Below are positions 11,166-42,873 of a stretch of DNA of 64,000 nt, piece after piece (positions within the stretch are counted from its first letter, which is position 1; the number at the start of each line of letters is the position of its first letter). Under the pieces are notes generated by a model, which made no database searches, was not told where the DNA came from, and saw only the letters and a list, made by a program, of their open reading frames with translations. Where the stretch lies: the NCBI RefSeq assembly GCF_000189635.1, contig NW_002476544.1, positions 620,001 through 684,000 on the forward strand, given 5' to 3'. This DNA comes from Tetrahymena thermophila SB210 (Eukaryota; Ciliophora; Oligohymenophorea; Hymenostomatida; Tetrahymenidae). The position numbers and the translations under genes were made by a program.

Positions 11166-14100
11166 ATGATCTCAGATGACAGTAGTTATGAAGAAACAAA
11201 GATAAATAATGAAGGTAATCAGGATAAAAATCATTAAGATAGCTTAGGCATAAAATAAAAAAGCTCATAGTAAAGCAGGTCATATTTTTAAAAACCTTAA
11301 ATGTAATAACAGAAAGAAAACTTGTAAGAAGTTAATCCTTCATTATTTAGTACTCAAGTTGCTACATAAAAAATTCGAGTGTAATTTGAAAGCAAATTAG
11401 AACTTGGTTTAGAATAAGAGAGCTTAATTTAATCTTAGATATAAGGAACACAAGATGATATAGAAATATTTTAAAAGAAAAATCAACAAAATAATCTACT
11501 TTAAATAAAAGATACTCTTGTGGAATAAGCTGAAAAATTTGCATAAGAATAAAAAAATTAATTGAAATAAACAGAAATTTGTTAAAATTAAACATTATAA
11601 TAACAACTTGAAAGTTAATTAAATGAACTTCTTAATGAATTAGAGCTAACAGATGCAAAACTAATAACAGAAGAAATAGAAGATTTTTCATATATAATTT
11701 AAAGATAAATTAGTAGAAATTAGATAAATATGACTTATGGATCTAAAATAAGACTTAATAAGTTAAATGAAGCACAAGTAAAATACAAGGCATTGCTAGA
11801 ATTGGAAGGATAAATTCTACTTGATTCAAATTAAGTGAAATAATAATCGTTTGATGTAGAATAGAGTGTATTACCTAAAGAACTAAATTTAGAAGATGAA
11901 AGCTGCATTTAATCCTAAGTTAAACTCTACTAAAATTAAAGTTAATAATAATTATTAAAAAAAAAATTGAATGATTTACTATAAGAACTAGATTTAGAAG
12001 ATGAAAGCTAAATTTAATCCTAGATAAAACTTTATTAAAATTAAAATTAAGTTTAATTATTATAATTTGAAGAAAAATTGAATGTATTACCTTAAGAACT
12101 AGATTTAGAAGATGAAAGCTAAATTTAATCCTAAGTAAAATTTTATTAAAATTAAGTTAAATAATAGTAATTTGAAGAAAAATTGAATGTATTACAATAA
12201 GAACTAGATTTAGACGACGAAAGCTTAATTTAATCAAAAGTTAATCTTTATTAAATTGAAAATTTTCAAAATCAAAATTTGTTAAAAAATGCCTATGGAT
12301 CCAAAACAAGACTTGAAAAGCTAAAAGAAGCACAAAGAATCTAAATATTATTAAATAATAAGAGTAATGAAAACCAAATTGAATAACCTTAGCCTAAAAA
12401 TTCAAATAATAGTCATATAAAACTAAAGGAAAATGAATTTCAAAATTCTGATCTCCCTTAAAATCAGCCTTTTGATGTAATAAAATAGTATAACTTAAGT
12501 GATTTAAGATAAGATATTTCTTTAATCCCTGAGAGCAGTGAAAAATACTTACTTGAAATGATAGAAATTTGTTTAAATATATATAAATAAGTAGATACTC
12601 CTCAAACTGATCCAGGAAACTCGTAACTTTTGACTTAGAAAGAAAAAATAGAAAAACGTTTAATTATTGAAGATTAAAAAACCCCTGAAATAAGCTTACA
12701 TTTACAAAATATTTAATAAAACATAGATCAAGATAATTTTAAAGGTATTATTGATGAAACAGATATGCTTATTAAAAAGGTAAGACCTTTAAATATTAAT
12801 GAAATGAAAAGGTTGATTCATGAAGTAGATAAGGCTGCACAAGCTGTAGAAGGATAAGATATTATTATACTTTTAGGTGGAACAGGAGTAGGAAAATCAA
12901 CAACTATTCATTTTTTAGCTGGCTCAGAGATGGCTGAGCGAAAAATCGAAATAGAAAAAGGAGTTTTTAAAAATTACATAGGTCCTGTTGAAATAAAGAA
13001 TAAGACTCTTTAAAAAGTAAAAGTAGGATATTCAGCTACCTCTGAGACCCGTTTTATTACACCTGTAAATATTAATTTTAAAGACCTTAATATGGTTTCA
13101 AGTGATTCAATAATTTTATGTGATTCACCTGGTTTTGATGTTATTTCAGGGCCAGAAGTAGATATAGCAAATGGTTTAGGAATTGTTAAAGTAATCAAAA
13201 AATGTAGGAGTGTGAGACCTGTAATATTGCTAAGTTTCGAGAGTTAGGGTGATAGAGGTTAAGGTATTAAACAATTAGCTCACATATTGATAGGATTTGT
13301 TAACGATATTTAAGATAAAATTAGTTCATTATCTTATCTATTTTCAAAATATCCTAAAGATTATAATATAAATTCTGAATTAATCAATATTAAGAATATT
13401 ATTGATTAGATTACAGAAGAAAAATCTGATGAAGCTTTTACTATTCTAATTGATGACATGATTGAGAAAACTAAGAAATCACGTAACATAATAGATCCTC
13501 TTAAAGGAAATCCAACAGAAATTTTAAATAACCTAATGAAACAGGAAGGAATTTAAGATCCTAGTTAAGTTTTCAAATTTTCTATAACAAATAATTCTTA
13601 TTCTGCAATAACAAACTATATTTTTAAAACAAAATAAATTATCATTTCTGCACTAAGTAGAAGTGAGTATGAATTAATTAATTTTAAGTTAGACGAACTA
13701 AAATTTTTAATAGAAATCTTAAATTTAGAATCTATAAAAAAAGTTTATGAGGATTGTGTAAATTATATTAAGGAAGCTATCAAAAAAGACTACGAAAATG
13801 CTACTGAGTAGCTAAATTAATAAATAGAAAACAAATTTATTTAAAAGTGTTCATAAATACAAAGCTTGAGAAACAATCATTTAAGTGCTAATTTTAGTAA
13901 TTCTAACGAATTAATTGATGAATTAAAGCTTGCAGTTAAAAAATTGGCTCAAGTTTTTGGCTAAGAAAACATCATTCAATCTCCAGTATTAGTGGAAGCA
14001 AACTTGTAAGAAGACATTCCTAATAATATCATTAGAGTTGTTCCTTAAAAAGCTGAAGAGTAATTTGAAAGTTAATTAAATTAGCTTCTTCAAGAATTAG

Positions 14101-15671
14101 AACTAGAAGATGCAAGACTAAGAACAAAAGAAATAGAAGAAGTTAAAATTCTAATTGAAAAGTAAACTAGCAGAAATTAGATAATCAATGCTTCTAATTC
14201 TTAAAAAAGACTTGATAAGTTAAATGACGCCAAAGCAAAATACAATGCATTACTAAAATTGAAAGGGGAAACTCAACTTTATTAAAATTAAGTTAAACAA
14301 TAATAATTAGAAGAAAAATTGAAAGCTTTACTAAAAGATCTAGATTTAGAAGATGCTAGCCTAATTGAATATGAGATTGAAGATTTATTAGAAGATATTG
14401 ACAAGCATAAAAAGAAAAATCAACAAAGTCAAGTACTAGAAAAAAAAGAAACTCTTAAAAAACTGGAAGATGCTCAATAAGTTGCATAAGAATTAAAAGA
14501 TTTGAAGCAATAAACTGAAGGTTTTTAAAATTAAACTCAATAATAACAACTTGAAATTTAATTAAATTAGCTTCTTCAAGAATTAGAGCTAGATGACGCA
14601 AGACAAATAACAGAAGAAATAGAAGAAGTTAAAAATGATATTCAAAAGTTTACTAACAAAAAGTAGTTAAGCAAAGCTTCTGAATCTAAAATAAGACTTG
14701 ATAAGTTGAATGAAGCCCAAGTAAAATACAAGGCATTGCTAGAAATGAAAGGAGAAACTCAACTTGATTAAAATTAAGTTAAACAATAATAATTAGAAGA
14801 AAAATTGAAAGCTTTACTAAAAGATCTAGATTTATAAAATACTAGCCAAATTGAATCTGAGATAAAAGATTTATTAGAAGAGATTGACAAGCATAAAAAG
14901 AAAAATCAACAAAGTAAAGTACTAGAAAAAAAAGAAACTCTTAAAAAACTGGAAGATGCTCAATAAGTTGCATAAGAATTAAAAGATTTGAAGTAATAAA
15001 TTGAAGGTTCTTAAAACTAAACTCAATAATAATAACTTGAAATTTAACTAAATTAGCTTCTTCAAGAATTAGGACTAGAAGATGCAAGACTAATAGAATA
15101 AGCCCGAGTAAAGTAATTTCTACTTGATTAAAATCAAGTTAAAAAATAATAATTAGAAGAAAAATTGAAAGCTTTATTGGAAGTACTAGATTTAGAAGAT
15201 GAAAGTTAAATTTAAGCTGAGATCTAAGTCACTCTTGATTAAATTGAAATTTGCCAAAAGAAAAATTAACAAAATAAAGTACTTAGAAAAAAGTAAACTC
15301 TTGAAAAACTAAAAGAAGCAGAACAAATAGCATAAGAATTAAAAATTATAAATAAATAAACTACTTATTAATAATAGCTTGAAAGTGAATTAAGTTAAAT
15401 CTTTATAGATTTAGATATAAATGATGCAAATTTATTATAAGAAGAAATAAATGATGTTGAAAATCAAATTGAAAAATATATGAGCAAAAATTAGTTAAAA
15501 GATACCATTTAATCAAAAATAAGACTTGAAAAGTTGAAAAAAGCATCAGCAATACATAAGGAATTACTAGAATTGAAAGGAGAAATTCTACTTGATTAAA
15601 ATTAAGTTAAATAATAAGACTTGATAAGTTAAATGAAACCCAAATAAAATACAAGGCATTACTAGAATTGA
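11166..15671 (+). CDS. Rearranged GTPase/coiled-coil member of the giant family (copy 3)
   Basis: I read an uninterrupted frame of 1,501 codons from ATG 11166 to TGA 15669-15671. Order of parts: a Gln-rich acidic leader; coiled coil with a full 81-residue unit; about four short 35-37-residue repeats around ELDLEDES (units start near 11880, 11985, 12096 and 12201); a linker; a P-loop GTPase-like domain with GGTGVGKST (residues about 571-579) and DSPGFD (about 653-658); helical sequence. Near 14000 it jumps to a motif like the family's own N-terminus (ENLQEDIP in copy 4) and resumes 81-residue coiled-coil units (exact 486-bp spacing at 14065, 14551 and 15037). The SecA motor and vWA domain are absent. 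The frame ends shortly after a small deletion near 15618 shifts the reading, so the C-terminus is probably accidental. Its long open frame suggests recent origin or continued use. Function is unknown. Confidence 0.75.
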
Positions 15672-16620: not shown

Positions 16621-17400
16621 AAAATTTATCAATTTGCACAATAAAAGTCAAGTTAGTAGAAGAAAAAAAATTATTGAATATAACAAATTTCTTTTTGAGT
16701 TTTTTGCATATTCAATTAAATTAATTTGTATTAGATTTTCCTAAATTAAGTATAAAGAAAAAGTACTTTATTCTCCTATTAATTAAACATCAGTACTCTT
16801 TTCTACGTAATCAAAAGTTAAGATTATTTGATTACACACAAATACATTCCAAAAATAACTTGAGAAATAAAATTTTAAAAATTGAAAATAATAGAAATTA
16901 AGATCTTTTTTTATATTTTAGGTTTCAAAAAGTATTTTCATTTTAAACCTTTTATAGAGAAGGCTCTGAATGAATATCGTAATTATTAAATTATTTTAAT
17001 TTCTTTAAGGATCAAAATAACAAAGCATAAGTTTTTAAATTTTAACTTCAATTATTCGTCTTATTTGGATAGTTATTAATAATTCAAAAAAATTAATTTC
17101 AAGTGACAAACAAGTAAAATAAATTGATAATTTCCCAAATATATCCCTATCTTTTGAGCCTCTTACTTGAATATATTTTTCACATATTCAAACAATTTAC
17201 AAAAACAAATTGCAACATCAGGTAGAAAAACACAATTTATTAATCTCTTTTTTAATTTTAACTATAATATGAAAGCTAGAGGAAATAAGGTATTTTTTGT
17301 GTATATACTAAGAAAAGATATGAATTAAATAAATAAAAGTTTTATTTTATATAGATTAAGCTATAATCTTACTGAGCTGCATGCCCAGGGTGAACTAAAA
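16621..17400. repeat. Repeat family A, unit 5
   Basis: Nearly identical to 2035-2830, ending 'cttactgagctgcatgccca'. The segment at about 17277-17350 reads as the reverse complement of the usual 'cagtctatacacaaaaa' part, so a small internal inversion has occurred here. Confidence 0.7.
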
Positions 17401-17439
17401 TATTAATTTTTTTTTTGTACAACCTTCGGTGTACAAATT

Positions 17440-23261: not shown

Positions 23262-26200
23262 ATGGATTTCGGAAGCGATAGTGAAGAAACAAAGTCAAAT
23301 GGATGTAATGAAGATTAAAATCTTTAAGATATCTAAATGGAAGAAATATAGAGAAATTAATAGAGCTCATAGTAAAGCAGTTCGTATGTCTAAAACTCTT
23401 AAATGGAAATACAGAAAGTAAACTTGTAAGAAGACATTCCGTCTTGGAATCTTACTTAAGTTGCTCCATAAAAAATTCAAGAGTAACTTGAAAGCTAATT
23501 AAAAGACCTTCTTAAATAACTAGATTTAGAAAATGAAAGCTACATTTAATCTGAGATCTAAGATACACTTGATTAAATTGAAAATTGTAAAAAGAGAAAT
23601 CAACAAAATAAATTGCTTGAAAAATAAGACCTTCTTAAAAAACTGAGATAAGCTGAATAATTTGTGTAAAAATTAAAAGATTTGAAGTAGTAAACTGAAG
23701 GTTCCTAAAAATAAACTTAATAATAATAAGTTGAAAATTAATTAAATTAACTTCTTAATGAGTTAGAGCTACATGATGCAAAACTAATAACAGAAGAAAT
23801 AGAAGAAGTTAAAGATCTGATTGAAAAGTAAACTAGTAGAAATTAGCTAAACAAGGTTTCTGAATCTAAATAAAGACTTGCTAAGTTAGATTAAGCCCAA
23901 GCAAAGTACAAGGAATTACTAGCATTAAAAGGAGAAACTCTACTTGATTAAAATTAAGTTAAATAATAATAATTAGGAGAATAATTGAAAGTTTTACTGT
24001 AAGAACTAGATTTAGAAAATGAAAGCTACATTTAATCTGAGATCTAAGATACACTTGATTAAATTGAAAATTGTAAAAAGAGAAATCAACAAAATAAATT
24101 ACTTGAAAAATAAGACACTCTTCAAAAACTGAGATAAGCTGAAGAAATTGTAAAATAATTAAAAGATTTGAAGTAATAAACTGAAGGTTCTTAAAATTAA
24201 TCTTAATAATAATAACTTGAAAGTTAATTAAATTAACTTCTTAATGAATTAGAGCTACATGAAGCAAAACTAATAACAGAAGAAATAGAAGAAATTAAAG
24301 ATCTGATTGAAAAGTAAACTAGTAGAAATTAGCTAAGTAAGGTATCTGAATCTAAAATAAGACTTGCTAAGTTAGAATAAGCCCAAGTAAAGTACAATGA
24401 ATTACTAGCATTAAAAGGAGAAACTGTACTTGATTAAAATTAAGTTAAATAATAATAATTAGAAGAAAAATTGAAAACTTTACTGAAAGAACTAGATTTA
24501 GAAAATGAAAGCTACATTTAAGCTGAGATCTAAGATACACTTGATTAAATTGAAAGTTGTCAAAAGAAAAATTAACAAAATAAAGTGCTTTAAAAAAAGG
24601 AAACTCTTGATAAACTAAAAGAAGCAGAAAAAATTGTTAAAGAATTAAATGATTTGAAATCATAAACTGAAAAACCTTAAGATCAAACTTAATAATAATA
24701 ACTTGAAAGTGAATTAAATTAAATATTTGAAGATTTAGACATACATGATGCAAATATATTATAAGAAGAAATAAATGATGTTGAAAATCAAATTCAAAAG
24801 TATCTGAGCAAAAACTAGTAAAACAATGCCAATTAATCCAAATTAAGACTTGAAAAGTTAAAAAAAGCATCAGCAATACATAAGGAATTACTAGAATTGA
24901 AAGGAGAAACTATAATTGATTAAAATAAAGCTAAATAGTAATAATTAGATGAGAAATTGAATACTTTACTATAATAACTCGATTTAAAAGATGCTAGCCT
25001 AATTTAATCTGAGATAAAAGAAGTATTAGACGAAATCGAAGTGTATGAAAAGAGAAATCAACAAAGTAAAGTACAATAAAAAAAAGAAACTCTTCAAAAA
25101 CTGAAAGATGCTGAAATAATTGCAAAAGAATTAAAAGATTTGATGAATTAAATAGAAGGCTCTTAAAATGCAAATTAATCATAATAATTTGAAAGTTAAT
25201 TAAATTCAATCCTTAAAGAATTAGATATAAGTGATGCAAATTCAATACAAGATGAAATTGAAGATGCTGAAAATCAAGTTCAAAAGTATATGAGCAAAAG
25301 TTAGTTAAACAATGCCAATTAATCTAAAATAAGAATTGAAAAGCTGAAAGAAGCACAAAAAATATACATTTAATTAAATAATAAGAATAATGAAAATCAA
25401 ATAGAATAATCATAGCCTGAAGATTCAAATAATAATCAAACGGAAATTAAGGAAAATTAATGTCAAGATACTAATCTCCCTAAAAATCAACCTTTAGACA
25501 TAACAAAAAGGTATAACAACTATGATGATTTAAGAAAAGACATCTCTTTAACCCCAGAAAGTAGTGAAAAATACTTACTTGAAATGATAGAAATTTGTTT
25601 AAGTTTGCATCAATAGGTAGATACTCCTCAAACTGATTCAGGAAACTAGTAACTTTTGACTTAGAAAGAAAAAATCGAAAAGCGCTTGAAAGTTGAAGAA
25701 TTAATAACTCCAGAAATAAACTAAAATTTACAAAATATAAAATTAAACATAGATTAAGATAATTTTGAAGGTATTATTGATGAAACAGATAAGCTTATTA
25801 AAAAGGTAAGACCTTTAAATATTCACGAAATGAAAAGGTTGATTCATGAAGCAGATAAAGCTGCTAAAGTTATAGAAGGATAAGACATTATTATACTTTT
25901 AGGTGGAACAGGAGCAGGTAAATCTACTACTATTCACTTTTTAGCTGGCTCAGAGATGGCTCAGAAAAGAATCTAAATACAAGAGGGTACTTTTTATGAT
26001 TACATAGGTCCTGTTAAAATAAAGAATAAGACACTTTAAAAAATAAAAGTAGGATTTTCAGCTACCTCTGAGACTCGTTTTATTACACCTGTAAATATTA
26101 ATTTTAAAGACCTTAATATTCCTTCAAACGATTCAATTATTTTATGTGATTCACCTGGTTTTGATGACACTGCTGGACCAGAAGTAGATATAGCAAATGG

Positions 26201-29200
26201 CTTAGGAATTGTTAAAGCAATAAAAAAATGCAAGAGTGTGAGACCTGTAATATTACTAAGTTTCAAGAGTTAAGGTGATAGAGGCTAAGGCATTAAGCAA
26301 TTAGCTCACATACTGGTAGGATTTGTTGAAGATATTTAAGATAAATTAAGCTCCTTTTCTTATTTATTTTCAAAATATCCTAAAGATTATAATATTAATT
26401 CTGAGTTAATCAATATTAAAAAAAGTCTTGATTCAAATATAGAAGAAAAATCTGATAAAGCTTTTGTTAGTCTATTTGAAGACATGATTGAAAAAACTAA
26501 GAAATCATGTAACAAAATAGATCCTATTAAAGGAAATCCAGCTGAAATTTTAAAAAGCCTAATTAAACAGGAAGGAATTTTAGATCCTAGTTCCGTTTTC
26601 AAATTTTCCATAACAACTAATTCTTATTCTGCAATTACTGAGTATACATAAAAAACACAATAAACTATAATTTCTGCACTAAGTAGAAGTGAGTATGAAT
26701 TAATTAATTTTAAGTTAGACGAACTAAAATTTTTAATGGACATCTTAAGTTAAGAATCTACAAAATAAACTTATGAGTATTGTGTAAATTATATTAAGGA
26801 TGTTATCAAGAAAGAATATGAAAATGCTACTGAGTAGCTAAATTAATAAATAAACAACAACAACAAATTAGATACAAATTATCTAAGGTAATATTAAGAA
26901 CTTATTTAAAAGTTTTAATAAATATAAAGCTTAAAAAACAATCATTTAGGTGCTCATACTAGCAATGCTAATGATTTAATTGATCAATTAAAGTTTGCAA
27001 TTAAAAAGCTTGCTGAAGTTTTTGACCAAGAAAATATCATTCAAACTTCAGTTTTAGTTAATCTAGGTAATATTAAGCTGATTTCTGAGTACTTTCCAGA
27101 AGTAATGTAGTAATATAATGAAGCGTGTTAAAAGATATAAAAATAAATTGAAGATGTTTTTGCTTCTTGTATTCAAGCATTAAAAAACAAAAATTTTGAT
27201 GATCTAGCTCAAGCAATTTATAAAATAACTCAATATCGAAAGCAATTTAAAAATCACTTAGATGATTAGCCTATTTTGGATCAATTAGAAAGAATCAAAG
27301 ATTAATTTAAAACGAGAATAGACTAATCAGTTTAAGAAGTAATTGAAATTTTGAAATTATAATTACTAAAAGACGAAGATATTAACATTATAAATGAATA
27401 AATTTCAATTATCGAAAATGCTGAAAAGAATTTACTACTTGCTTAAAATATTAATATTGATTATGTTAAAAATCAAAAAAACAATCTTTTTAAAAATTTA
27501 TTAGAAAAATTTGAAAAGATTAGCAAAAAGATTGAAGAGATTCTTAGAAAAGAACCAGATTAGGCATTTCTTTAATTAAAAAACCTTGTAGAGGAGATGG
27601 ATTAATTTAGAAAAATAAATGGAATAGAGAATAGAACTGCTGATACCTACTACAAATCTATCTAGGAAATATAGTCATTAATGCAATAAATTAAAAGAGA
27701 TGTAGAATAACTTTTGAGTGATTTCTAGCATGATAAGAAGAAAGTAGACTTCTAAAAGATTTACCGTTGTTTAAATCAATTAAAATGTGCTCAATGGATG
27801 AACGATGTAAATAAAGGAGCTTATGATTAAACTATAACTCATATATCATAAGAGCTTTTGAAGTATTCTTAATTTGAAATCATTTAAAAACTAGGAGAAA
27901 TAGATTTAAGCTAAAAGAATTATGGAAATATCTAAGTAGCTTCTGAATTGATTAAAGAATTGGAAGCAATGATATTGTTTGAAGAATACAATTCTAAATT
28001 AACAGAGTTAAGAGAAAATGCATGCTCTATGTTTAAAAAATCAGTATAAGTTGTCTTTAATTAAGTAAAAGAATTAATAAATGCAGCTAGTACTGGTGGT
28101 TAGCTTTTCTAAGTTAAAGATAAGGAAGAAGAAAAATAAGAATTAGAAAAATCAGAATAAAAGGAATAACAATTAAATAGATAACGTTTATTAGTAAAGC
28201 TTGATGGAAGTAAAATTGAAGATTATCTTAATTATATTCGTGTTGCCTGCTAAAATAAGTGGACAAGAGATGACGCTAATACTTTATTGGAATAATTGAA
28301 AGAATTTTTAGCATTTTACAAAGAATCCAAAAATTAATAAATCCTTAATCACTACGAGAATATCATAGATTTACATGAATAAGATGAAAAAAAAAAGACT
28401 TAGAGTGCTTTATAATTATCAGAACTTATTCAAGAATTAATGAGCTTATAAAAATATGAAGAGACTAGCTCGTTGATTTAACCAAATTAATTGATTCAAG
28501 ATTAAAAAAATAGGATGTAATAGTATTACATAGAATTGAGTCATGATATGAGTTAACCTACGATAGATAAATAAAAATTAGCAAAATCTATTATTATATC
28601 TAAACTATTAAGTCATACTGATAATAAATTTGAAGAAAATAAATTTTTCAACCTCTACTAGTCTAAGCAAAATGCTTTGAATGATGAATTCAAAGATAAT
28701 TACAAAAAAATATTACAAGCAATAGAAAAAAATGATTTTGTTGCAGTTAAAACTGAATTAATGTAACTCGATGATAATCCTGTAAATTAGAAAGCTATGA
28801 ATTAGATAAAGGCATAACTTTAATATCAAACTGAAACTTTGTTAGAATAGGCTAAATTAGATGCATTAGCACTTGGAAATTAAATTGAAAAAGATATTAT
28901 CATGAAGATAATTAAAACTATTGAAATAATTAAAAAATCAAAGTCTTCTTTTAAAGAATATTTTGAAAAAAGTTTTTTGGAAACTATTGATACTGAAATA
29001 GAATCAATAATTTCAGATATTGATCAAAAGATTTCAAAATTTTTAGAAAGCATTACTGCACTTTTAAAGTAATCTGACTTTTTTGAAGTTGAAGAAAAGA
29101 GAGAATATATTACCTAAATTTTATAATTATTAGCTGCTCATAGTAAAGATAAAAAAAATAAAGATAAATTAAATTAATTATAGAGTGATCTAGAAAAAAA

Positions 29201-32200
29201 AGTAGAAGAAATAACAGCAACTAAATATGAAGATGAAAAAGATTTTATATTTCACCCTCCAAAATAAATTTTAGAAAAGCTCAGTAAGGTTAAAGGTAGA
29301 AACCTTAAATATGCAGAGTGCTATACAAATTTATAGCAGATACTTATCATTAAAGTAAGACAACAAATAGTAGATTATTAATCTTCAGATTCAAGTCAAC
29401 AATCATAACAAATCTTAAAAGTTGAAACTCTCATGAACTCAGTACCTGAAGAATTAAAATAAGCATTAAAAGATTAATTTGATACTTCTAAATAATAAAA
29501 TGAGTAGAGAAGGAAAGTCTTTGAAGATTAATTTAACGAACTTTAGTCATGTGAAGATTTAGACAGGAAAAAAGTATTTTTAGATGAGTGCAAAGCATAA
29601 AAAATGCATAATTTTGAAGATAAGATGAGAAAATTAGTTTAAGAAGAATGTTAATCTATACTTAGTAAATTTTAAGAAGATATGGAAAGTGGTAAACCTA
29701 AAGATGGAGTACAAAAAGCCATTAAACTTTTAGAATATAATAAACATTTTGAAAATGATGAAAAAATAAAATCTTAATTTGAGAAAGTATCAAACACAAT
29801 AAAAGAAGAAATGAAAAATAAGGTGAATAATTTAAAATGCATAGAAAAGTTTGAGGACAACACTGATTAATATGAGAAAGAGTATGAATTATTCTTGAAT
29901 CTGTTGTAAACTATTAAAGACTACAAGGAATAATTGTTATCAAGTGATTTTGATAAAATTTTACAGGAATTTTGCTCAATTCTACAAACCTTCTTTATTG
30001 ATATTTTCAAAAATTTTGATGAAGACTTAAATAATGATAAAGTACAACATATCGAAAAAGATCTTACAACAATTAAAAAATGGGAAAATTTAGTTTAAAA
30101 GCTAAAAAAAGATTTTTAAAAAGTAAATAATTTGAGTTCTTGCTTCGAATAGTTACCAAAGGCTATTGCCACTATTTAAGAAAAAAGTGTAAGCTTTAAA
30201 GAATGCATGGAAAAACTTGCTAATCGTTTATTTGATTCTAAAAACGATATTATGAAGTTTAATTTCATTTAAGATCTAAATAAGGATGATTACTACAAAT
30301 AGATATAAAAAGGTTTATAAACACTTAAATAAGCACAAGAAGCCAAAATTGACTTTAAAGAAACTAAATTTGAACCTGAATGCTATGAAAAGGAATGCAT
30401 TCCAACTATAGTAAAGAAAATTGAAGAAGAAGAAGAAAAAGTTTATTAGGTATTAAGAAAAGAAGACTCATAGATTTAAGATAAGGATTATAAACAAATT
30501 AATCAGTTTTATGAGAATATTGAGAGTTTAAAGAATAATGTTAACTAATTTATACCAGTTGAAAAACATATTGATGAACTTAATGATAAAATTGACTAGA
30601 GAATAGATAAAATAGAAAATAACATTGATTTAGAAAATGTTGACAGTGTCGCTTAAAACATTATTCAAATGAAAAAACACTCTGAAAATTTACATCCATT
30701 TAAGAAAAAGATTTCTGGAAAACTAGATAATTTTTTAAAAAATAAATATTTTAAAGACAAAGAATCTAAATCTATGAAAATGGCTAAGTTAGCAGCTCAT
30801 TTATAAGATGATGAAAATGGATATGGCGCAGCTATTATAGAAGAAAGTGAAGTCTTTAAAGGAGTTTCTATTTCAATTTTTAACGAAAGTACATAAAAGC
30901 ATGGTATTGATTATGTAATTGAAAACATTAGAGGTGATGAAATAGATAAAACAAAGCTCAAAGAACTGTATATGAAATTTGAAAAAGAATACTAAGAAAT
31001 AGTTACAAAAAATTTATTGTATGTAGAGAAAAATACTAAGACAGATAAAGAGATTATTGAAGATCTGGTGATAAAAACTAAATAGATTACAAATAAAAAA
31101 GTAGAAATGAAGGAAGGAAAAATTAATTGGGATAATTCTTTGAGATAAAAATTACCATCTTTGGTTGCTAATTTATTTGCATTATGGACTCTTTTGAATA
31201 CATAATACTTTAAAGAAGTAGCCGATTTAGAAAATAAACACAACTATTTGTTAAAACCTCATGCAGGATAAGTTATTTCTATATTCCGTTTGATAGGGAT
31301 AGGATATAGTAAGGACAATCTTTATAATAATTTAGTATAATTAGGTACAGGAGAGGGTAAATCAATAATATTAGCTATTACTTCTATTACATTCGCTTTA
31401 TTTGATATGGATATTTATTGTGCTTGCTATAGCGAGTATCTTAGCCAACGTGATTACAATAGTTTTGTATAATTATTTAACACACTTGGAGTCACCCCTA
31501 ATATTAAATATGGTATATTTAATAAAATATGTGAATAAATTATAAATGAGAATGGATAAGTTCGTGATTTAGCTGTTAATTATATTACTAATGGTTTTTC
31601 TGGAAGAAGTAAAGGCCTTGACAAAGATAAATAAAGAAAACCAAAAATTTTATTGATTGATGAAGTAGATGTTTTCTTTTCATAAGATTTTTATGGTAAA
31701 CTTTATAATCCCATAGCACGTTTATAAGATTAATGCATTATAGATCTTGCTCAATTTATATGGAATAGAAGGAGTAACTATCTTTCTCTTAAGGAAGTAC
31801 AAGAAACTGAGTGTTACTAATAGTGCATTAGTAAATTTAAAAATTTGAATTGCATAATCGATGAATCTATAAAAGACATGATATCAGATTCTAGAAACTT
31901 CGAGCATAAATATGTAGTCTAAAATCTATAAATAGGTTACTAAGAATAAGATGGTATATCATTTGATATCACTTATGGCTATAAAACATTATTTGCTTAT
32001 TTTTATGAATTAGAATAAAAAAGAGTAAGTGAAAGTAAATTAAAAGAAAATACATTTATAAGCATAAAATGTGGCAGCTTTTCCTATTCCGAAATTCCAT
32101 TTAAATTTGATTGTATTGTGGGAGTAACAGGTACATTAGAAACTTTGAGTGTACCAGAAAAAAACATAGTTTAAAAAATATATAATATAACTAAGGATAC

Positions 32201-33686
32201 TTATATTCCAAGTGTTTTTGGAAAAAATAACCGTAAATTCGCAGAAAAAGATGATACACATGTTGAAGATGAAGATGATTATTTTAAGGTACTTAGAAAC
32301 GAAATTGAGAGAAATCTAAACAGAAATGGTTCTGACAAAAATCTAAGATCCGTTTTGGTTTTCTTTGAATCAAAATAGAAGCTAATTAATTTCTACTAGT
32401 CTGATTAAATGAAAGACATTAAGATGGATGTTGAAATTATTACAGAAGAAGTATCAACTAATAATGATAAAAAATAACAATTAATTAAGAAAGCTACTGT
32501 TTCTGGGTAAATAACTCTCCTAACTTCTTCATTTGGACGTGGAACAGATTTTATTTGTCGTGACTAAAAAGTGTTAAATAGTGGAGGAGTACATGTTATT
32601 TAAACATTTTATTCAAGTAAGAAATCTGAAGAGGTTTAAATTATGGGCAGAAGTGCTAGGTAGGGATAAGTTGGATCTTATAGTTTGGTTCTTTTGGATT
32701 AAGAGCTATAAAGGGTTATAGGACCTGGATATGAATAAGCACTAAAAGACATGAGAGATAATAATAACCACTACAAAAAACTAGGTGAATATCGTAAACT
32801 AAGAGAGGATTAAGAATATGATAATAGAAACAAATTTATTGAACAAATAAAGAAAGATCATGAGGAGGGATAAAAATTTGTATAGGCCATGTTAGAACAG
32901 GATGAAAAATTTATTAAAGAGTTCTTAGCAAGCAAAAATAAAGGTACAAATGAAATACCTAATCTAATTCGTATTCTTTGTTTAGTTGATGGCACAGGGT
33001 CTATGGGACCTTTATTAAATAAAGCTAAAACAACAGTAAGTGAAATGTTCGAAAGATCTTGTAAAATTATCAAAAATACTAAAAAAAATATTCCAGAGGA
33101 TTGTTTCAAGCTGTAATTTGCAGTTTATAGGGATTACGATCAAAAAGAAGGTGTTCTACAAGCTTCTCCATGGGAATCAAAAGTTGATAATTTACGCTTA
33201 TTTTTAGATACAGTAAAGCCTGCAGGAGGAGGAGATTATGAAGAAGCAGTTGAAATAGGTTTTTAACATGCAAATTAAGAAAATTAAAATTAAGAAATAG
33301 CAGCAATAATTTTGCTTGCAGATGCTCCTTCAAAAAGTATGTCTTCAATTAAATAATATAGAGAAAAATATGGAGGAGAAAGCTATTGGAAAACAACAAA
33401 ATATTCAGAGATAACTGACTACAAAAAAGAAATGTAAAAACTAAAAGCAGCTAATATTCCTATACATAGCTTCTATTTGGATGAAGGAGCAAAAAGTAAC
33501 TTTGAAGAAATTTCTGCATTTACTAATGGAAAATGTGAAGGCTTAAATATTGACTCTAATGATGCCACAGATAAATTGATTTAAATAGTTGTTGAACCAA
33601 TTCTTAAAAATGTAGGTAAATAAAATGGATTAGGAGATGATTTATATCAAGAATATCTAAAATTGTTTGCTAAAAGCTATAAATGA
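23262..33686 (+). CDS. Giant coiled-coil / P-loop GTPase / SecA-type motor / vWA protein (copy 4, complete)
   Basis: The single-exon span from ATG 23262 to TGA 33684-33686 is a whole number of codons (3,474 residues), and I met no TGA in the stretches I translated. Parts: an acidic Gln-rich leader; eight 81-residue coiled-coil units (residues about 76-720); a GTPase-like domain with GGTGAGKST (881-889) and DSPGFDD (963-969), no clear N/TKxD; about 1,600 residues of charged helices; a SecA-type motor with LGTGEGKS (2694-2701), YLSQRD, IDEVD (2799-2803), VTGTLE, GRGTD (3092-3096), GGVHVIQT and MGRSARQG (3128-3135); and a vWA domain with DGTGSM (3243-3248), YRDYD and GGGDYEEA. No signal peptide or membrane segment. 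The motor motifs imply ATP hydrolysis and the vWA implies metal-dependent protein binding. Cellular role is unknown. The neighbours are broken or rearranged copies of the same gene. Confidence 0.85.
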
Positions 33687-34225: not shown

Positions 34226-35575
34226 TCATTTTTTATTGCTTAGTAAAATATTTTCAGTCTAAACCAAAGCAGATTCATAAGCACCATGAATCGTGGAGTG
34301 GTTTAAAATGCTGGTTGCTTCACCACCGAAAAATAGTCTGTTTTATAAAGGCTCTGCCAAGTCTTGTCTTTCTTTTGTCCAGTGTAAAGTTGGAGTTGTA
34401 TATCCTCCTTCTATGTATTCCTTAGTAGAGTAACCTGTATAGATATGATCTTCAAGAAGTTCAGGAATTTTATCGTTCTTAAAAAGCTTTGCTAGCTTTT
34501 TCAAAAAAGTAGAAATTAATTCTTTTCTAATTTATTCATCTTCTACTTTGATAGCTACTTCTTCTACTAACAAAGTTGTTAGCACATTACTTTTAGATCT
34601 GTCCTTACAAAGACTGCTATTCCAAGTCATACCGAAATCATGGTCCCAAAGTATTATAGAATTGAAATTTTCTGGCCAAAATCTCTCTTTAAAACGATAT
34701 TGCAATTTACCAGATATGCCAAAATTTATTGTTTTAATTGCATCAAGTTTGTTTTATGGGAGAGAAGGTATGAATTCAATAGAATTATTTTTCAGCTAAC
34801 TAATTGTTACTGTGATTAAAACTTGCTTAGAATAGAAGGTTCTTCCATCTTTAATGGTTATTTTAATTGATTTTTCATCAGAATAATCGATTTTGCTAAC
34901 TGGAGAGCTATATTATATAAGAGGTAGCACATCACCAAAAGCCTTTGTGATTACATCATAATGGGACATATTTGTGATCATTGAATGATCGCTTTTTTCA
35001 ACTAACTTATCATATTCTTAGACTCCTTTCCATGAAATCTTAGATAATTAAGTTCCATTTTCTGTGCCAAGTAAATTTTGATAGAATTTTCCACATTTAC
35101 TATAGATTTTTTTTTCTTCTAAGTAATCCTTAATTGAAACATCAAAAGAAAGTTGATCGTATTCTTTTTCTGTCATGTCCCAAATATCATATTGAGGGAA
35201 CTGCTCAAAGAAATCATCTTCAGTAATCATTTCTTCTTTTTCAGGGTGTTCTACAAAATAAATGCTGTGGCTTATCTCAGATATGATGTCTGCTCCCATA
35301 TCTTTTGCTAGCTAGAAGTAAGCGCTTTTCCTAAGGTGGATTTCTTCTCCTCCAGTCTCTACTGCAAAGTTGGCCAGATTTTCATTCTTGGAAATTCTAC
35401 CACCATAAACACTCCTAGCTTCTAAAATCTTAACCTTATAGTTATTTTTAACTAAGTTATGAGCAGTTGCTAAGCCTGAAATACCTGAGCCAATCACAAT
35501 AACATCGTAGATATCTTCTTCTTATTATTGTTATTGCTACAACGAAAGATTATTCAGCTATTGATTTAATTCCAT
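34226..35575 (-). CDS. FAD-dependent amine oxidase (polyamine/monoamine oxidase type)
   Basis: One exon of 449 residues from ATG 35575 to TGA 34228-34226, a typical length for the flavin amine oxidase family. After a short Gln-rich N-terminus comes the FAD dinucleotide-binding strand YDVIVIGSGISGLATA (G-x-G-x-x-G at about 29-34) with the acidic end of the second strand in KILEARSVYGGR. Near the C-terminus are GGYTTPT and FFGGEATS...HSTIHGAYESAL, the usual flavin-binding end. Such enzymes oxidise amines to imines with release of hydrogen peroxide. The substrate cannot be inferred. The family also includes lysine-specific demethylase-like proteins, but no SWIRM or tower domain is visible. There is no signal peptide, membrane anchor or clear peroxisomal tripeptide. 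It converges on copy 4 and has its own upstream spacer. Confidence 0.88.
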
Positions 35576-38177
35576 TTATATTGTGCTATTTATTTTTTAT
35601 TTAATTTGTTTGATCTTAATTTTTAAATTATTTATGTATTATATATATAACTAGGATTAAATTTTAGGCATATATTTAATACCAATTTATTAAATAATTA
35701 TTTAAGAAAAATCTATCTTAAATTTTAGATCTATTATAGATTGATATGTAAATTTTATGTTATATTTACTAAGAAAGAACTAAAAAGTAACAAAATAAGT
35801 TATTTTACATTAATATTATAGAAACAACATAATAATACAATAAACTTCTTAACATTTTTAAAAACATAATAGAAAAATAGTTGATATTACAGAAATAAGT
35901 ATTTTGAAATAATTTAAAAGTATATCTAGTGTTTAAATTTATACAAATGTAAACTCAAACCAAATATTCTTAATGATTAAATTAAGTAATTGGGTGTATT
36001 CTAATGTGTATTTTTCTTTTTCTAGTAAAAAAGAGTAATCTATAAATATTTTCTCTCTTTCACAAATAATTCAGTTCAAAAAAGCTAATAATCATTATCT
36101 ATTTTTATCTGGTTGGTTTAATAATTCTATTGCAAAAATACAATATACATGTATCATTTGAAGTTTATTAGAATTCTTAACTGAAAAGAATAAAAATTTA
36201 AGAATATAATAGAGGGAATGTTAATAACTTATTCATGCAATTATCTTTTAAACTATTTCATTCATTCAATCAATCAATCAAAATTTGGAATACATTTATC
36301 TATTATATATGGGTGTAATTAAATAAAAAAGAAATTGTTTGTATAAAAAATTATTAAGAAAAAGTAAGTAAATAAATTAAATAAATCTTGGAATTATGCA
36401 ATTTAAATCACACATTTATTTAGCTGCTAATTTTAAAATTTTTGATGGGTATTGTTTGATTTTTAATCTTATTTTTCTTCTATAAAAGTAATTTGTTTAT
36501 CACTAAATAAAGCGAAAATTTTGCTCTAAGATTATTTTAGTTAATAAAAAAGAGTGTTCTTCTAATCAATCATTTTCATTTCAAATAAAAATTATTAATA
36601 TATTTACTTAATTCATAAAATGATAGATTAATTGTATGATTCATATATGTCATTTAAATACTTATTTTTTTCTCAAAAAAGTAATTCCAACTTTAGTTAA
36701 AGAATAAAAATATTTTTTATTTATTTTTTAATTGATTTTTAATTATAACTATGATTGAATTAATACCTATAAATAAATGATAATTTTGTAATATTATTAA
36801 AATGAGGACGAAAAAGCATAATATTCTTTTGGTAATTCTTTTATTCTTAAAAATAAAGCATAATTTTGTAAAAATGTAAATCGATTAGATCATTATTTAT
36901 TATTAATTATATTTGTATTTTTTCCTAATTTGTCATAAACACCCAATTACAATTTTAAAAATTAGCCATAGATAATACAAATCTAATAATTTTATTTATA
37001 ATAAAATTATAACCACAAAAAAAGGACTGATTAGTGGTAGTTTATAATTTATTTTTATGAAGTAAGAAGATATTTAAAAAAATAATGATTAAAATGATTT
37101 TATATAAAAATATTCTTTATCATTAAAAAAAATATTTTTAATTTGTTGGTAAAAGTTAATAAATTTTATTATTTATAGAATTTAATACAATCTACTGTAG
37201 TTTCTTACATTTTACATTGATTGAAAAAGAAAATTTCTAATAATTTGTGAGTGATAATTTTCAACTTTTTAAAAATGAGTTTTAATTAAATAATGTGTTC
37301 ATATATGAGAAAAAAAGGTAAATATTACATTATTTTGTGTATTTTATTTCCACAAAGCTTTTAAAAATTTGAATTAATAAAATACAATTAAAAATAATAA
37401 AGAGATACCAATAGATAATAAATGAATAAAAGCAAGGTCATTAGCAGTAAATTCATTGTAAAAATATTAAATATTTGATTAAAAACAGTAATAATTTATA
37501 TTAATAAAATAAAATTTATCAGATTTTGATAAAATTAAAATATACTTTTATGAATTTATTTAAACTTTTATAATACTTTTATGCATAAGATTAAAAATAT
37601 AGAAAGAGCATTTTCTTACACTTAGCTCATGATTTGGATTTTTCTCTTTTACTAAATAAATTCTTTTACATAATTAGTATTTTTATTTGTTTCTAATTTT
37701 GTCTTTAAATTATGATTGCTGGTTACAGAAAAATAGATTAAAGAACCACATTTGAAATATTTTTTGTATATTGAATGATTTCCTTGTTTAAAAAAGACCA
37801 TATTTAGTTGTTATATATTTATTGGTTTATTTTAAAATCTTTAAAAATTTTAAATTAGATTTTATATATTTTATTATTTCAATAAAAACCAACTTTGTTT
37901 GTGCTTATGAAATAAACATAGCCATGAGAGTGAAAGAATAATAAATTAAATAAAATAATTATTTTTATTCTTAATTTAATATATTGCTTGATATTTTAAA
38001 GATAAATATTAACTTATTTATTGGAAAAGAATTAAATTGTAATGATAATTTAATTAATTTTATTGATATTAAAGATATAGATTTTGTATAGATTGTAAAT
38101 AATACTAAATATTTTATTATACAATTAATAGAATTAACTTTAGTGATCTGCCAATAATTCAAAGGTATTTCATTAAA
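35576..38177. other. Long AT-rich spacer without recognisable genes
   Basis: About 2.6 kb of unique, very AT-rich sequence on both strands. Open stretches (for example on the minus strand at 37971-38162) have random composition, rich in Ile, Asn, Lys and Phe, with no conserved motif. It holds the upstream region of the amine oxidase and the 3' end of the next minus-strand gene. Confidence 0.6.
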
Positions 38178-39919: not shown

Positions 39920-42873
39920 TCAAATCAAAGTAAAAATATATTTGTTGTCAAACTAATTCTTTTTTCCATTTTTAGAAAAAGAAACTTTGTGAGGCGATCT
40001 GGTATTATTGCAACTGTCACTATTATTATTGCAGTCAAATGATTTATTGTTTTGGTTAATTTTGTATGATGATCTTGATCTAACTTTGTAGTCAATTACT
40101 ATTGCATCTTTCAAATCTTATTTAAGTTCTGTTTTGCTAAATTTGATGTCTCTATTTATGTAATCTCCCTTGAGAATGAAGTTTAAGCTAATTAAATCTT
40201 ATTCATATTGCTAATCTTTCTATTTTCTTTACTGATTTTACAACTAAAATACATCTTTATCATATTATAACTAATTAAATAATTTGTTAAGTTTAACTTT
40301 GCTGTTCTTTCTTTTAGCATTTTTATCGCTTTAAATAATTTGCTCCATTAAAGAATCTCCTGACTCTTTGTAAAACTTTTTTTTTGACTATTCATATTTT
40401 AGCTCGACTGCTTTATTATTCTGTATATCTTCTTCGTTTATAATACTTTTTTCACATTATTTATCATCTTTAATCGAAGGTAACTGGGTTTACATATTTG
40501 ACCTTGCTTGCTCAGTTTTACTGATAATAGAAAAATTATTTTTCGGACTTCTGCTTGGAGATTCTGCTGCACTTGTTTCCACATTATTTTAATTTCTGCT
40601 TCTAGATGTTTATTCTAATTTCAACAACTAAGTAAATGAAGTTTTTTCTTTTGGAGTGTTCAAAGTAAAAGCCTCAGTTATTTGATATTCATTTGAAATA
40701 GATTAACTCCTTTGCTTTTAATTATAACGGGCTTTTAATTTATTTGTATAAGAATAAGGTGTGAGACTTGGTAGAGAATCTAGTTAAATTGAATCTCCGT
40801 ATTTTGAATTAATTGCATACTCTGAATCTGTATAATCAATACTCATATCTATATTTTAAGTTTCATTTTAATATGTATAATTATTAGTTGAGTTTAGCGA
40901 GTTTGGTATATGCTAAATTTATTTTTATTTCTCAAACTTAGTCTAATCTTATGTGATATCTGTCTTCTAAGTAAAACATTCCTTATATAGTTTAATTCTC
41001 TCAGGACTTAAATGTAATTTTCTATGAATAATAGTATCTTATTAATTTTATACTATTTATTGATACATTTAGTCATATCTTTCTATTTTTGTTTTTGCAT
41101 TATTTTCCAAATAGTGTACTGCATAAGGTTTATCAAGAATTTTAGCATTAAAAATCTAAAATTAAAAAATATTTAAAAAAATAAATCTCAAATTGTATAA
41201 AAAATCATTTTCATTAAAAAAAACTGATTAATGAAAATAACTTAGAAATGAGGGGCTGTAAGTGAAATGCATTTATTTTATTTTTTAATATTATTATTTC
41301 AAAATATTGAAAGTGTTCCCATTAAAATTTGAGAAATTAAATGTGCCCCTCCCTATTTCCCTCCTATTAAATAATTAATTTTGTTATCATTTTGAAAGTA
41401 ATTAATAAAATTTTCTTTTGTAATTATTATCAATAATAATTTTGGATGAAGTTTAAAGTTTACTGATTATCAAAAAATTTTGTTTTTAACAAGCTTATTG
41501 TAAATGCATTTTGATCAAAATTACCCTATAAAATAAACCTTTTATTTGAAAGAATTTATTTTTCTACATTGACTTACAAATATATTCTTTAGTTTTCTTT
41601 AAAAAAATATTTAAAATGTATTTTATTATCATTTTTTCTATATTTATTCTAATCACGTGATTGAAATTTATTTAACAATATTTACTTTGTTGCTTATTAT
41701 CCATAGGATAGCATCTTGAGTCAAGCAACGTATGCTGTAGCTCCTATTTTATTATAAGTATAAGTCATCTTCTCCAAAAATTTCTCCTTTAGAAAGAACA
41801 CATATCTTTAAAAAAATGTAATGAATAAAATAATTTATAAAACTTTTATTTATTTTACTTGTGCTTCTTTAGAGAGAAAATATTTACTATTTTTACATTT
41901 TTTAAGATATATTTTAGATGTTTTATTCTAATCTTGCATTTCATTTGATATGAGAAATGATTTAGTTACAGAAAAATCACCTTCAATAATAATAAACATA
42001 TTTTCACTTTGTTATCCTTACTAGTATATATACTCTCCCAACTTGCATTTCTTGACTAATACATTATAATAAATCCACTTTAAGCTTCCTCTGCCCCACC
42101 TCCTAAAGAATTCAAAGCTGTGTAACAAATTAACAATTTAAGCAAGTTTGTTTTCTTCATAAGTCCCTATTAGATAAATAAATTTCGAAGTTAATTATAA
42201 ACTTAACCAGGTGAAACTTATTTAATTTACCTAATATCCTCATAAATGATTCTTTATTTAGAATCAGCATATGCACTTCATCTTTAGCTATTATTGTTGC
42301 TGTTCTTCCTCTGTTTTCAATCAAACCCCTTTCTCCAAAAGACATTCCTTAAGAAAGCACTTTAACTTCTACTAAATTTGCAATGGATATATTAATATTT
42401 TACTCATTACTCTACTTATTCTACTTTTAATCATGCAGATTGATCATTACAGAGCATTCTCCCTGTAAAATTAAGTAAAATTCTAACGATTTCTCACCTA
42501 ATTGAAAAATTATATAAATAAATATTATAAATGTAACCTTTTAAATGTATACCTATAGAGCAAACAATCTAATCTTTTTGATAAATCCTATATTATAATT
42601 ATTTAAAAAGCTAATCTAGTATCCAAGTTTTATTATTCTTGAATAGTACTAATAAATATGCTAACTTAGGACACAAAAGTTCTCTTAACTTTTACAAATC
42701 ATATCTATTTCTATCTTGTTGCTTTTTAGTTAGTATTTATCTAGCTTCCTTAAAATAAAAAGGATGAGATAAGAATGATATGGCTTATATTTTACTGCTA
42801 AATCTTAATGGTAGAGATTCTAAAGTTAAATATCTTTATCTAATTTTGAATCTACCGCATATCCTTCACTCAT
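39920..42873 (-). CDS. Protein with two cyclic-nucleotide-binding domains and a long Ser-rich tail (six exons)
   Basis: Exons 42796-42873, 42553-42748, 42231-42497, 41859-42166, 41686-41805 and 39920-41155 join in phase to 734 residues. Introns have GT-AG ends and lengths of 47, 55, 64, 53 and 530 bp. The first binding domain (about residues 60-185) carries a canonical phosphate-binding cassette, FGERGLI then RGRTATIIA, so it should bind cAMP or cGMP. The second (about 190-325) has EYIYQQGQQSENMFIIIEGD and FGEDDLY with NRSYSIRC, keeping the Arg but otherwise degenerate. The last 410 residues are polar, with basic Ser-rich clusters such as SRSPKNN, and have no recognisable domain. There is no kinase domain, membrane segment or obvious PKA inhibitor site. 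It is most likely a ciliate-specific cyclic-nucleotide sensor or a divergent kinase regulatory subunit. Splicing was inferred by eye. Confidence 0.82.
41250..41351. other. GC-rich inverted repeat inside the 530-bp intron
   Basis: GAGGGGC (41250-41256) and its complement GCCCCTC (41345-41351) lie 88 bp apart in otherwise AT-rich intron DNA, followed by another C-rich patch. In RNA they could pair as a seven-base stem. It is a compositional oddity. Function is unknown. Confidence 0.4.

Follow-up and report, generated by a model that had tools for sequence, protein, structure and literature searches.

A giant ciliate protein that joins a GTPase-like domain, a SecA-type motor and a putative vWA domain, with relatives in uncultured bacteria

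One open reading frame of Tetrahymena thermophila carries GTPase-like, SecA-like and vWA-like motifs, which raises the question of whether these motifs belong to one protein and what such a protein may do. In bacteria, the ATPase SecA drives proteins through the SecY pore. It is an SF2 motor, and its preprotein cross-linking domain sits between motifs II and III. The window is the whole stretch of 64,000 nucleotides that was analysed. The first-pass annotation had claimed a single frame of 3,474 codons with all of these motifs, and this frame was confirmed at 23262-33686 of the window (copy D), where it reads in table 6 to a closing TGA. The motifs were located at residues 881 (GGTGAGKST), 963 (DSPGFDD), 2695 (GTGEGKS), 2726 (YLSQRD), 2800 (DEVD), 3092 (GRGTD), 3108 (GGVHVIQT), 3129 (GRSARQG) and 3243 (DGTGSM). 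The features of the window are as follows.

48-416, + strand: copy A, another copy of which residues 3352-3474 at the vWA end are present (88% amino acid identity; the remainder lies beyond the window)
6040-7418, + strand: copy B, the gene start (residues 1 to about 396) joined directly to residues 3424-3474, with frame shifts and stops
11166-15671, + strand: copy C, a frame of 1,501 residues with the N-terminus, the GTPase and the stalk as far as residue 1266, followed by further 162-residue repeats
23262-33686, + strand: copy D, the intact giant gene of 3,474 residues (stays open in the ciliate code without the need for an intron; matched by homology to single bacterial ORFs over its GTPase, SecA and vWA parts)
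23478-25421, + strand: four 162-residue (486-bp) repeats rich in Q, E, K and L (residues 73-720; repeat analysis with a chosen register)
25800-26441, + strand: putative P-loop GTPase-like domain (about residues 847-1060; G1 at 881-889, SETR, G3 DSPGF at 963; homology to bacterial loci L014, L071, L097 and L098)
26442-31058, + strand: long helical stalk (about residues 1061-2599; blastp, with clear bacterial conservation in the last part only)
31059-32711, + strand: SecA-type motor (about residues 2600-3150; Walker A at 2695, DEVD at 2800, TGT at about 2955, GRGTD at 3092, GRSARQG at 3129; Pfam, PDB and profile matches)
32712-32966, + strand: short helical link (residues 3151-3235; in the family profile it lines up with the beginning of the long scaffold helix of SecA)
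32967-33683, + strand: putative vWA domain (about residues 3236-3474; MIDAS-like DGTGS at 3243; VWA_4; motif conservation)

A chance origin of the frame was ruled out by simulation, as 60 first-order Markov sequences matched in composition gave longest TGA-free runs of 223 codons on average and 348 at most. An alternative in-frame ATG upstream at 23028 would give 3,552 residues; the start at 23262 is favoured because the alignment of copy B begins at residue 1. The ciliate code for copy D is supported internally by the glutamines that face its TAA and TAG sites. Q2670 (TAA), Q3126 (TAA) and Q3134 (TAG) stand opposite Q in 5/5, 5/5 and 4/5 bacterial homologues, respectively. Across the 49 TAA/TAG sites in the aligned part, Q makes up 17.1% of the facing letters compared with 3.0% at non-Q sites, and it makes up 5.4% at the 10 CAA/CAG sites. 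The scan of the whole protein against Pfam and NCBIfam gave no SecA, vWA or GTPase family and only FlhF (0.0019); the domain matches emerged only after the protein had been cut into domains. The scans of the window with ARAGORN (bacterial code) and Rfam gave no tRNA and no Rfam family.

The GTPase, stalk and SecA motor were found in the ciliate order in five complete bacterial ORFs of 2,792-3,462 residues from Gammaproteobacteria and Chlamydiota assemblies. All five have the GTPase and SecA parts and three also end with the vWA. This order within single bacterial ORFs supports the claim that the GTPase, motor and vWA belong to one protein. Since the layout recurs in uncultured bacteria of two other lineages, it points to a real, apparently undescribed machine and not to a reading error.

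The GTPase-like domain of the ciliate is homologous to those of L014 (5e-23), L071, L097 and L098, and GKST and DxPG (G1 and G3) are invariant in all five rows of its alignment. The Pfam profiles scored below their cut-offs on this piece (MMR_HSR1 20.7 bits against 21.9; ABC_tran 22.5 against 25). The G4 that gives guanine specificity is not clear in the ciliate, which has FSKYPKD and neither NKxD nor TKxD; a G4-like TKMD is present in the translation of one relative only (L013). The PDB profile search gave weak matches to EHD4 (0.001), septin-9 (0.0018) and Irgb10 (0.03) that span mainly the P-loop, and ABC ATPases are among the stronger matches. Compared with septin, GIMAP, EHD and IRG-like GTPases, the ciliate domain shares the P-loop GxxGxGKST, SETR and DSPGF but differs in its G4. 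Thus the conserved G1/G3-type motifs of the claimed P-loop GTPase stood while its Pfam profile and G4 did not, and the motifs and weak profiles suggest the assignment weakly. The stalk that follows has blastp matches from about residue 2410 onward in L014, L070 and L097 (E 1e-10 to 3e-10).

The vWA assignment is likewise a weak one that is suggested by a motif and weak profiles. The claimed MIDAS-like motif is supported: D18, T20 and S22 of DxTxS are invariant in five aligned rows, one of them a phage vWA protein. The Pfam vWA profiles are under their cut-offs (VWA_4 22.8 bits against 27, 7.4e-5; VWA_2 19.6 against 27). The PDB sequence search with the vWA part gave zero matches. The domain resembles the intracellular vWA of the Ku80/Rpn10 type in DxTxS and, in a weak model, in alternating strand-helix order; it differs from them in its scores and in having no PDB sequence match. 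The structure models were poor (pLDDT 43.7 for A5 and 45.6 for A4). The Foldseek search with the A4 model placed SecA at ranks 1-10 (best E 2.4e-6), followed by vWA folds including Ku80 and Rpn10. As the TM-scores were at most 0.15, the rmsd was near 28 for SecA and the model is poor, this search lends no more than weak support.

The SecA affinity of the motor was borne out by the Pfam, NCBIfam, PDB and family-profile searches. SecA_DEAD (PF07517) scored 39.2 bits on the cut domain against a cut-off of 24.6 (6.4e-10) and matched all six relatives at E<=0.01. P-loop_SecA (PF21090), with its cut-off at 27 bits, reached 27.7 (2.5e-6) on one cut and 26.6 on a longer one. The PDB search with the ciliate motor found SecA (3e-11), and the best NCBIfam matches were SecA2 models (3e-16). 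The search for placement in another helicase family without SecA affinity came out as SecA, where 24 of the 27 PDB chains matched by the family profile are SecA (best 1.4e-23) and rank ahead of all others. The family shares with bacterial SecA and SecA2 the DEAD motor, a putative second RecA-like domain, TGEGKS, DEVD, TGT, GRGTD, GR.RQG and the insertion between motifs II and III. It differs in the absence of the WSDGLHQ-type segment and in the fusion of the motor to a GTPase, stalk and vWA. Identity to other SecA-like proteins is about 20-25%.

What the sequences support is the set of parts, the order in which they come, catalytic motifs that are intact in most members, a common motor branch and the occurrence in a ciliate and bacteria alike. 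The reading that we prefer, tentatively and short of calling it probable, is a distinct family of giant two-NTPase proteins that may act as cytosolic SecA-type polypeptide remodellers. The architecture would comprise a variable N-terminus, the P-loop GTPase-like domain, the helical stalk, the SecA-type motor lacking the C-terminal wing and finger and, in many cases, a vWA head. The motor would hydrolyse ATP to grip, thread or unfold polypeptides like the SecA core, and it would do so in the cytosol, undocked from SecY. The GTPase-like domain may govern assembly or recruitment, and the vWA may bind a partner or substrate via a metal ion. Such a remodelling machine would work at the interface of protists and intracellular bacteria and would have been spread by horizontal transfer; in the ciliate it is perhaps a defence or symbiont-control factor.

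The motor could instead act on RNA or DNA, in which case a SecA-like SF2 motor would have been turned into the helicase or translocase of a defence-like NTPase system. SecA itself is an SF2 motor, the family profile reaches the RNA helicase MSS116 (5e-4), and Helicase_C matches the motor piece in Pfam (0.012). We regard this as unlikely, as the SecA chains rank first, no nucleic-acid-binding domain was found by Pfam among the pieces scanned, and the insertion at the site of the SecA preprotein cross-linking domain is kept. Motifs II and III are 155 residues apart in the ciliate and 155-169 in the family, compared with 270-289 in four canonical SecA. The insertion gave no alignable sequence and a poor model when compared with the cross-linking domain.

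The frame shifts and stops of copy B mark it as a decayed copy with an internal deletion. Copy C lacks SecA and vWA, its GTPase (12786-13535) is 81% identical to that of copy D, and its repeat fragments continue to 15915. A family gained by horizontal transfer whose copies multiply and decay in the ciliate without an important function, selfish or neutral, would fit these truncated or broken copies and the near-neutral stalk of copy C (dN/dS 0.69, 95% 0.39-1.28). However, purifying selection was observed on the GTPase of copy C (dN/dS 0.37, 95% 0.23-0.58) and the vWA tail of copy A (0.32, 95% 0.15-0.79), with upper limits below 1, and the 10.4-kb frame of copy D is open with intact motifs, so that this alternative is distinctly unlikely. 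The three further copies or fragments indicate a tandem, rearranging gene family, which fits a possible self/non-self role for the ciliate protein. The preferred reading can be carried further to a GTP-gated, SecA-derived unfoldase with a vWA receptor head that is exchanged between protists and intracellular bacteria. In the ciliate, it would recognise and dismantle proteins of intracellular bacteria or rival elements through a fast-recombining cluster with variable coiled repeats; we consider this extension possible but on the unlikely side.

The trees were constructed from 43 motor stretches cut by motif; 12 loci were skipped as duplicate views, and loci without motifs gave no row. The 41-row tree was obtained by dropping the near-copies L030, L035 and L048 and adding L098 by hand, and the 22-row tree is a subset that leaves out L098 and other long rows. 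The 41-row tree exhibits eight rows, the ciliate and bacterial members, on one side of a 100/100 branch and canonical SecA and other giant SecA-like proteins on the other side. The 22-row tree, without long branches, exhibits the family branch at 100/100 with seven rows and groups the ciliate with the vWA-bearing bacterial proteins (94/90). The bacterial members constrained together without the ciliate gave p-AU 0.052, so that the ciliate may or may not be nested inside bacteria and transfer may have run in either direction.

A SecA-type translocase proper, coupled to a Sec channel in the ER or in an organelle or symbiont, would explain why SecA_DEAD is above its cut-off and why the best NCBIfam models are SecA2. 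We judge it very unlikely. The NCBIfam equivalog cut-offs for SecA and SecA2 were far from reached (33.9 against 800 and 58.6 against 1085), and the family forms its own branch apart from canonical SecA. After motif VI, five of the seven members that are not cut off have 95-127 residues, compared with 351-396 residues to the end in four canonical SecA; the ciliate has 114 residues between motif VI and the vWA motif. The exceptions are L014 (191 residues) and L098 (304 residues, with a degenerate motif VI and no vWA). By length, the C-terminal scaffold, wing and two-helix finger of SecA are therefore absent in most members, and a stretch too short for the wing and finger makes a SecY-docked role doubtful. 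A plain translocase was rejected on the scores, the tree position and this short stretch.

The family is rare, being found in 4/232 Chlamydiota and 3/369 Gammaproteobacteria. The order of G235 gave 2/143 positives (E 1e-41 and 6e-29; ORFs of 1,014 and 1,231 residues, outside the tree set) and the order of G234 gave 2/262, one with a broken frame. The order of G236 gave 0/291 in a survey without a positive control, which hence carries no weight, and the orders of G002, G304 and G375 comprise just 1, 1 and 3 genomes. That the common layout arises from assembly chimeras or eukaryotic DNA in bacterial assemblies is hardly credible: the bacterial members are all metagenome-assembled or without a species name and a single eukaryote was compared, but the bacterial-code frames are open, two phylum-level groups are represented, the G099 gene lies inside a 1.12-Mb contig, and the neighbours identified around L014 (such as NhaA, SpoVR and PrkA), L097 (GGDEF/EAL) and L071 (sugar-nucleotide genes) are bacterial genes, on which ground contamination was rejected. 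Close relatives in viral contigs numbered 0 with the single-protein query, 0 with A4 and 0 with A5; A2 gave two loci (L047 and L048), both outside the family. None of the 27 plasmid and 13 phage records reached 80% query coverage. In favour of the preferred reading, plasmids of the ciliate symbionts Megaera and Bandiella (from Euplotes) encode sister giants. On the opposing side, PADLOC matched the motor-vWA part to no defence family, and its matches to the GTPase were weak P-loop ones only.

With the systems of a paper from 2020 (PMC7159879), the ciliate protein has in common the use of vWA and GTPase switch modules. In the available text of that paper, SecA, Tetrahymena and ciliates are mentioned 0 times. 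The first-pass annotation did not expect SecA in a non-photosynthetic eukaryote, which is contradicted by the eukaryotic secA clade of Tetrahymena, Polysphondylium, Salpingoeca, insects and Daphnia that was published in 2013, according to the available part of that paper (PMC3639933). Its overall interpretation is thus supported in part, for the SecA affinity of the motor, the motifs and the single protein but not for the unexpectedness of SecA in a non-photosynthetic eukaryote, and a translocase role is doubtful. Horizontal transfer of giant SecA-like genes has also been argued, in the portions available (PMC3639933, PMC5062602). Very long genes with SecA-like motors are likewise described in eukaryotes and intracellular bacteria, including Wolbachia wBol1_1091/1092, phage WO wHa_3920/3930, Amoebophilus and a Megaera plasmid pair. 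The published proteins of Wolbachia, Amoebophilus, insects and Tetrahymena are compared by description. Of the giants placed in the trees, those of Megaera, Bandiella, Rickettsia and Legionella lie beyond the GTPase-SecA-vWA branch. Non-photosynthetic eukaryotes are thus already known to have SecA-like genes (PMC3639933, as available), but the search of open-licence PubMed Central papers yielded nothing that describes the present layout, which is apparently new.

The SecA motor has seemingly been cut from its pore-docking part and built into a two-NTPase protein of more than 3,000 residues that occurs in a ciliate and in a few scattered Chlamydiota and Gammaproteobacteria. Channel-free threading of polypeptides, if true, would be a third use of the translocase motor besides export and plastid import, and a tractable one, since transformation and gene knock-out are feasible in ciliates. 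It would also give a testable architecture for the eukaryotic secA genes that have been known since 2013 and are still unexplained.

The first-pass annotation had missed the four 162-residue repeats and the three further gene copies or fragments upstream in the window. The first repeat is 89, 79 and 71% identical to the later three.

The giant ciliate gene (copy D, 23262-33686, forward strand) is confirmed as an uninterrupted frame of 3,474 codons in the ciliate code (table 6) and carries all the motifs named in the first-pass annotation. The longest open run in 60 Markov sequences of equal composition was 348 codons. At residues 2670, 3126, and 3134, the bacterial homologues agree with a reading of TAA and TAG as glutamine. 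Four repeats of 162 residues form the N-terminal fifth of the protein and are followed by a GTPase-like domain, a helical stalk, a SecA-type motor, and a vWA domain.

The protein scanned in pieces matched SecA_DEAD (39.2 bits, cut-off 24.6) and P-loop_SecA (27.7 bits, cut-off 27). VWA_4 was a weak vWA-family match (22.8 bits) under its cut-off of 27, and two P-loop families, ABC_tran (22.5) and MMR_HSR1 (20.7), were also weak and under cut-off. None of these SecA, vWA, and P-loop families was matched in the whole-length scan of the uncut 3,474-residue protein. The phmmer search of the motor against PDB (E<=1) identified 23 chains, every one of them SecA (top 3e-11). The profile built from the ciliate protein and five relatives (E<=0.5) identified 27 PDB chains, the first 24 of which are SecA (top 1.4e-23). 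Judging from the sequence, the ciliate motor is SecA-related, since both the matches above the Pfam cut-offs and the leading PDB matches are to SecA. The earlier GTPase-SecA-vWA reading is partly supported: this part of it is upheld, and the GTPase and vWA identities are backed by motifs conserved across members, by similarity between family members, and by profile matches with low scores. The SecA chains in the profile search are followed by two entries of MSS116 helicase (5e-4) and one chain of PALB2 (0.2); one rival explanation is that the motor acts on nucleic acid. The SecA motor core holds polypeptides between its domains.

Bacterial and archaeal genomes were scanned with an alignment of SecA-like proteins, which identified at least 34 loci. 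Two stand out among the loci listed in that scan. L014 is a single ORF on a contig of a Gammaproteobacteria assembly that matches the ciliate protein, in order, in the GTPase (5e-23), the SecA motor (1e-57 and 4e-43), and the vWA (8e-17). L013 is a Chlamydiae contig of 5.1 kb, open at both ends, and one of its frames contains the motor as well as the G3 region. In the Chlamydiae group, strong matches were found in four of 232 genomes (G001, G074, G099, and G049), and nine more genomes have weak matches only, to other SecA. In the Gammaproteobacteria group, matches were found in three of 369 genomes (G002, G304, and G375). The gene of G049 is split between two contig ends, one with the GTPase half and one with the motor half.

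Complete bacterial ORFs of the giant family
L014: 3,462 aa; GTPase, stalk, motor, vWA
L070 (G074): 3,010 aa; GTPase, stalk, motor, vWA
L071 (G099): 3,323 aa; GTPase, stalk, motor; ends after the motor
L097 (G304): 3,093 aa; GTPase, stalk, motor, vWA
L098 (G375): 2,792 aa; GTPase, stalk, motor; without a vWA match

All five exhibit the order GTPase, stalk, motor. The GTPase of L070 was detected by the L014 protein query, not by the ciliate query. The genes adjoining L014, L097, and L071 are bacterial. As judged by these matches, the GTPase-stalk-motor layout is conserved between the ciliate and bacteria.

The GTPase profile also matches non-giant ORFs of about 450-2,060 aa in the Chlamydiae group. 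It matched 22 of the 232 genomes in all, with a maximum of nine matches per genome (G074 and G099, giants counted). L099 (genome G834, from the group of a Rickettsia centre) has a ciliate-type motor that is broken into two ORFs in different frames, 1,286 and 244 aa long, and adjoins another SecA-like ORF, at least 1,959 aa long. The nearest vWA relative in the phage collection is a small vWA protein of Podoviridae sp. ctLwi270 (L004; tblastn 3e-8, blastp 4e-14).

In the tree of 41 motors, eight giant-family motors, the ciliate included, form one side of a branch with support 100/100 and length 2.68. Across that branch lie the canonical SecA motors, together with those of giant SecA-like proteins from, among others, Megaera, Bandiella, Rickettsia, and Legionella. 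The same split (7 of 22 rows, 100/100) was obtained with long rows removed. By this topology, the GTPase-SecA-vWA family is its own branch among SecA-like motors. In the 22-row tree, the ciliate motor joins the vWA-bearing L014, L055 (G074), and L092 (G304) with support 94/90. This grouping points to gene transfer between bacteria and the ciliate, in a tree with one eukaryote and with a constrained alternative, bacterial members held together, that is not rejected (p-AU 0.052).

In SecA, the cross-linking domain lies between motifs II and III, and the region after motif VI holds the wing and the two-helix finger. The family keeps an insertion of 155-169 residues between motifs II and III. By residue counts, the stretch after motif VI appears too short for the wing and finger in most members. 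Four canonical SecA have 351-396 residues after motif VI. In the ciliate, the vWA motif comes 114 residues after motif VI; the corresponding distance, up to the vWA motif or else the end, is 124 in L070, 127 in L097, 95 in L071, and 105 in L072. L014 has 191 residues past motif VI; L098 has 304, and its motif VI is degenerate; the truncated L013 gives no length. The predicted structures of the family are poor. A second rival, that the motor is a true translocase, has the SecA_DEAD match on its side and the shortened stretch and the separate branch against it. With the parts that reach into SecY apparently absent, the likeliest use of the motor would be ATP-driven threading or unfolding of polypeptides in the cytosol, where the GTPase-like domain may gate the motor and the vWA head may aim it.

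Features of the ciliate locus
48-416: copy A, end of another copy
6040-7418: copy B, decayed, gene start joined to gene end
8697-9782 (+): carbonic anhydrase
11166-15671: copy C, GTPase and extra repeats, without motor
34229-35830 (-): flavin amine oxidase
42160-42966 (-): cyclic-nucleotide-binding protein
44004-44843 (-): Ras-like
56967-62576 (+): 1,870-aa protein that resembles an ion channel and has a cyclic-nucleotide-binding domain

In comparisons between copies, the GTPase of C has a dN/dS of 0.37 (95% 0.23-0.58), the vWA tail of A one of 0.32 (95% 0.15-0.79), and the stalk of C one of 0.69 (95% 0.39-1.28). A third rival, an acquired gene family in decay, would explain copies B and C and the near-neutral stalk of C, and fits poorly with the dN/dS of the GTPase and vWA. 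The locus is a multigene family with domains under selection and much recombination, a pattern that is common in conflict genes and is no proof of such a role. Intergenic DNA is also repeated between the gene copies (2040-2831 and 16621-17415, with many pairs within 836-22192) at identities of up to 91-95%.

The family occurs in a ciliate and in bacteria of groups where an intracellular lifestyle is common, and plasmids of ciliate symbionts carry sister giants. Both observations suggest that its role lies between protists and intracellular bacteria.

Eukaryotic-type SecA-like genes of Wolbachia were described in 2013, and Tetrahymena, Polysphondylium, Salpingoeca, and arthropods have matches to them (PMC3639933). 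A later report places such genes in the eukaryotic association module of phage WO (PMC5062602), and another paper notes SecA-like and GIMAP-type domains among Amoebophilus effectors (PMC3482391). No description of a single protein with GTPase, SecA motor, and vWA was found in the searches of open-licence papers. SecA-like motors are known, and this layout and its conservation appear undescribed.

Other SecA-like giants were also identified. The plasmid of Candidatus Megaera polyxenophila, a Euplotes symbiont, has two side by side (L001/L007; 1,589 and 5,225 aa), which resembles the gene pair wBol1_1091/1092 of Wolbachia; both lie outside the GTPase-SecA-vWA branch. Further SecA-like giants lie on plasmids of Candidatus Bandiella woodruffii (L002; ORF of 2,966 aa) and Legionella adelaidensis (L008; ORF of 3,010 aa). 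Two IMG/VR contigs filed as viral carry a SecA-like ORF each, about 3,557 aa long in L047 and about 3,555 aa in L048, and the L047 motor clusters with that of a Rickettsia endosymbiont. In L037, from a Ruminococcaceae assembly, the SecA-like motor of a 2,981-aa ORF is very divergent and forms a long branch. Short SecA-like proteins (638-674 aa) are found on alphaproteobacterial plasmids (L005, L009, L011, and L012) beside genes for PqqD-type or site-2-protease proteins and HlyD- or RND-type adaptors, some genes in this setting being annotated 'prepilin peptidase'; these loci are possibly a peptide export system.
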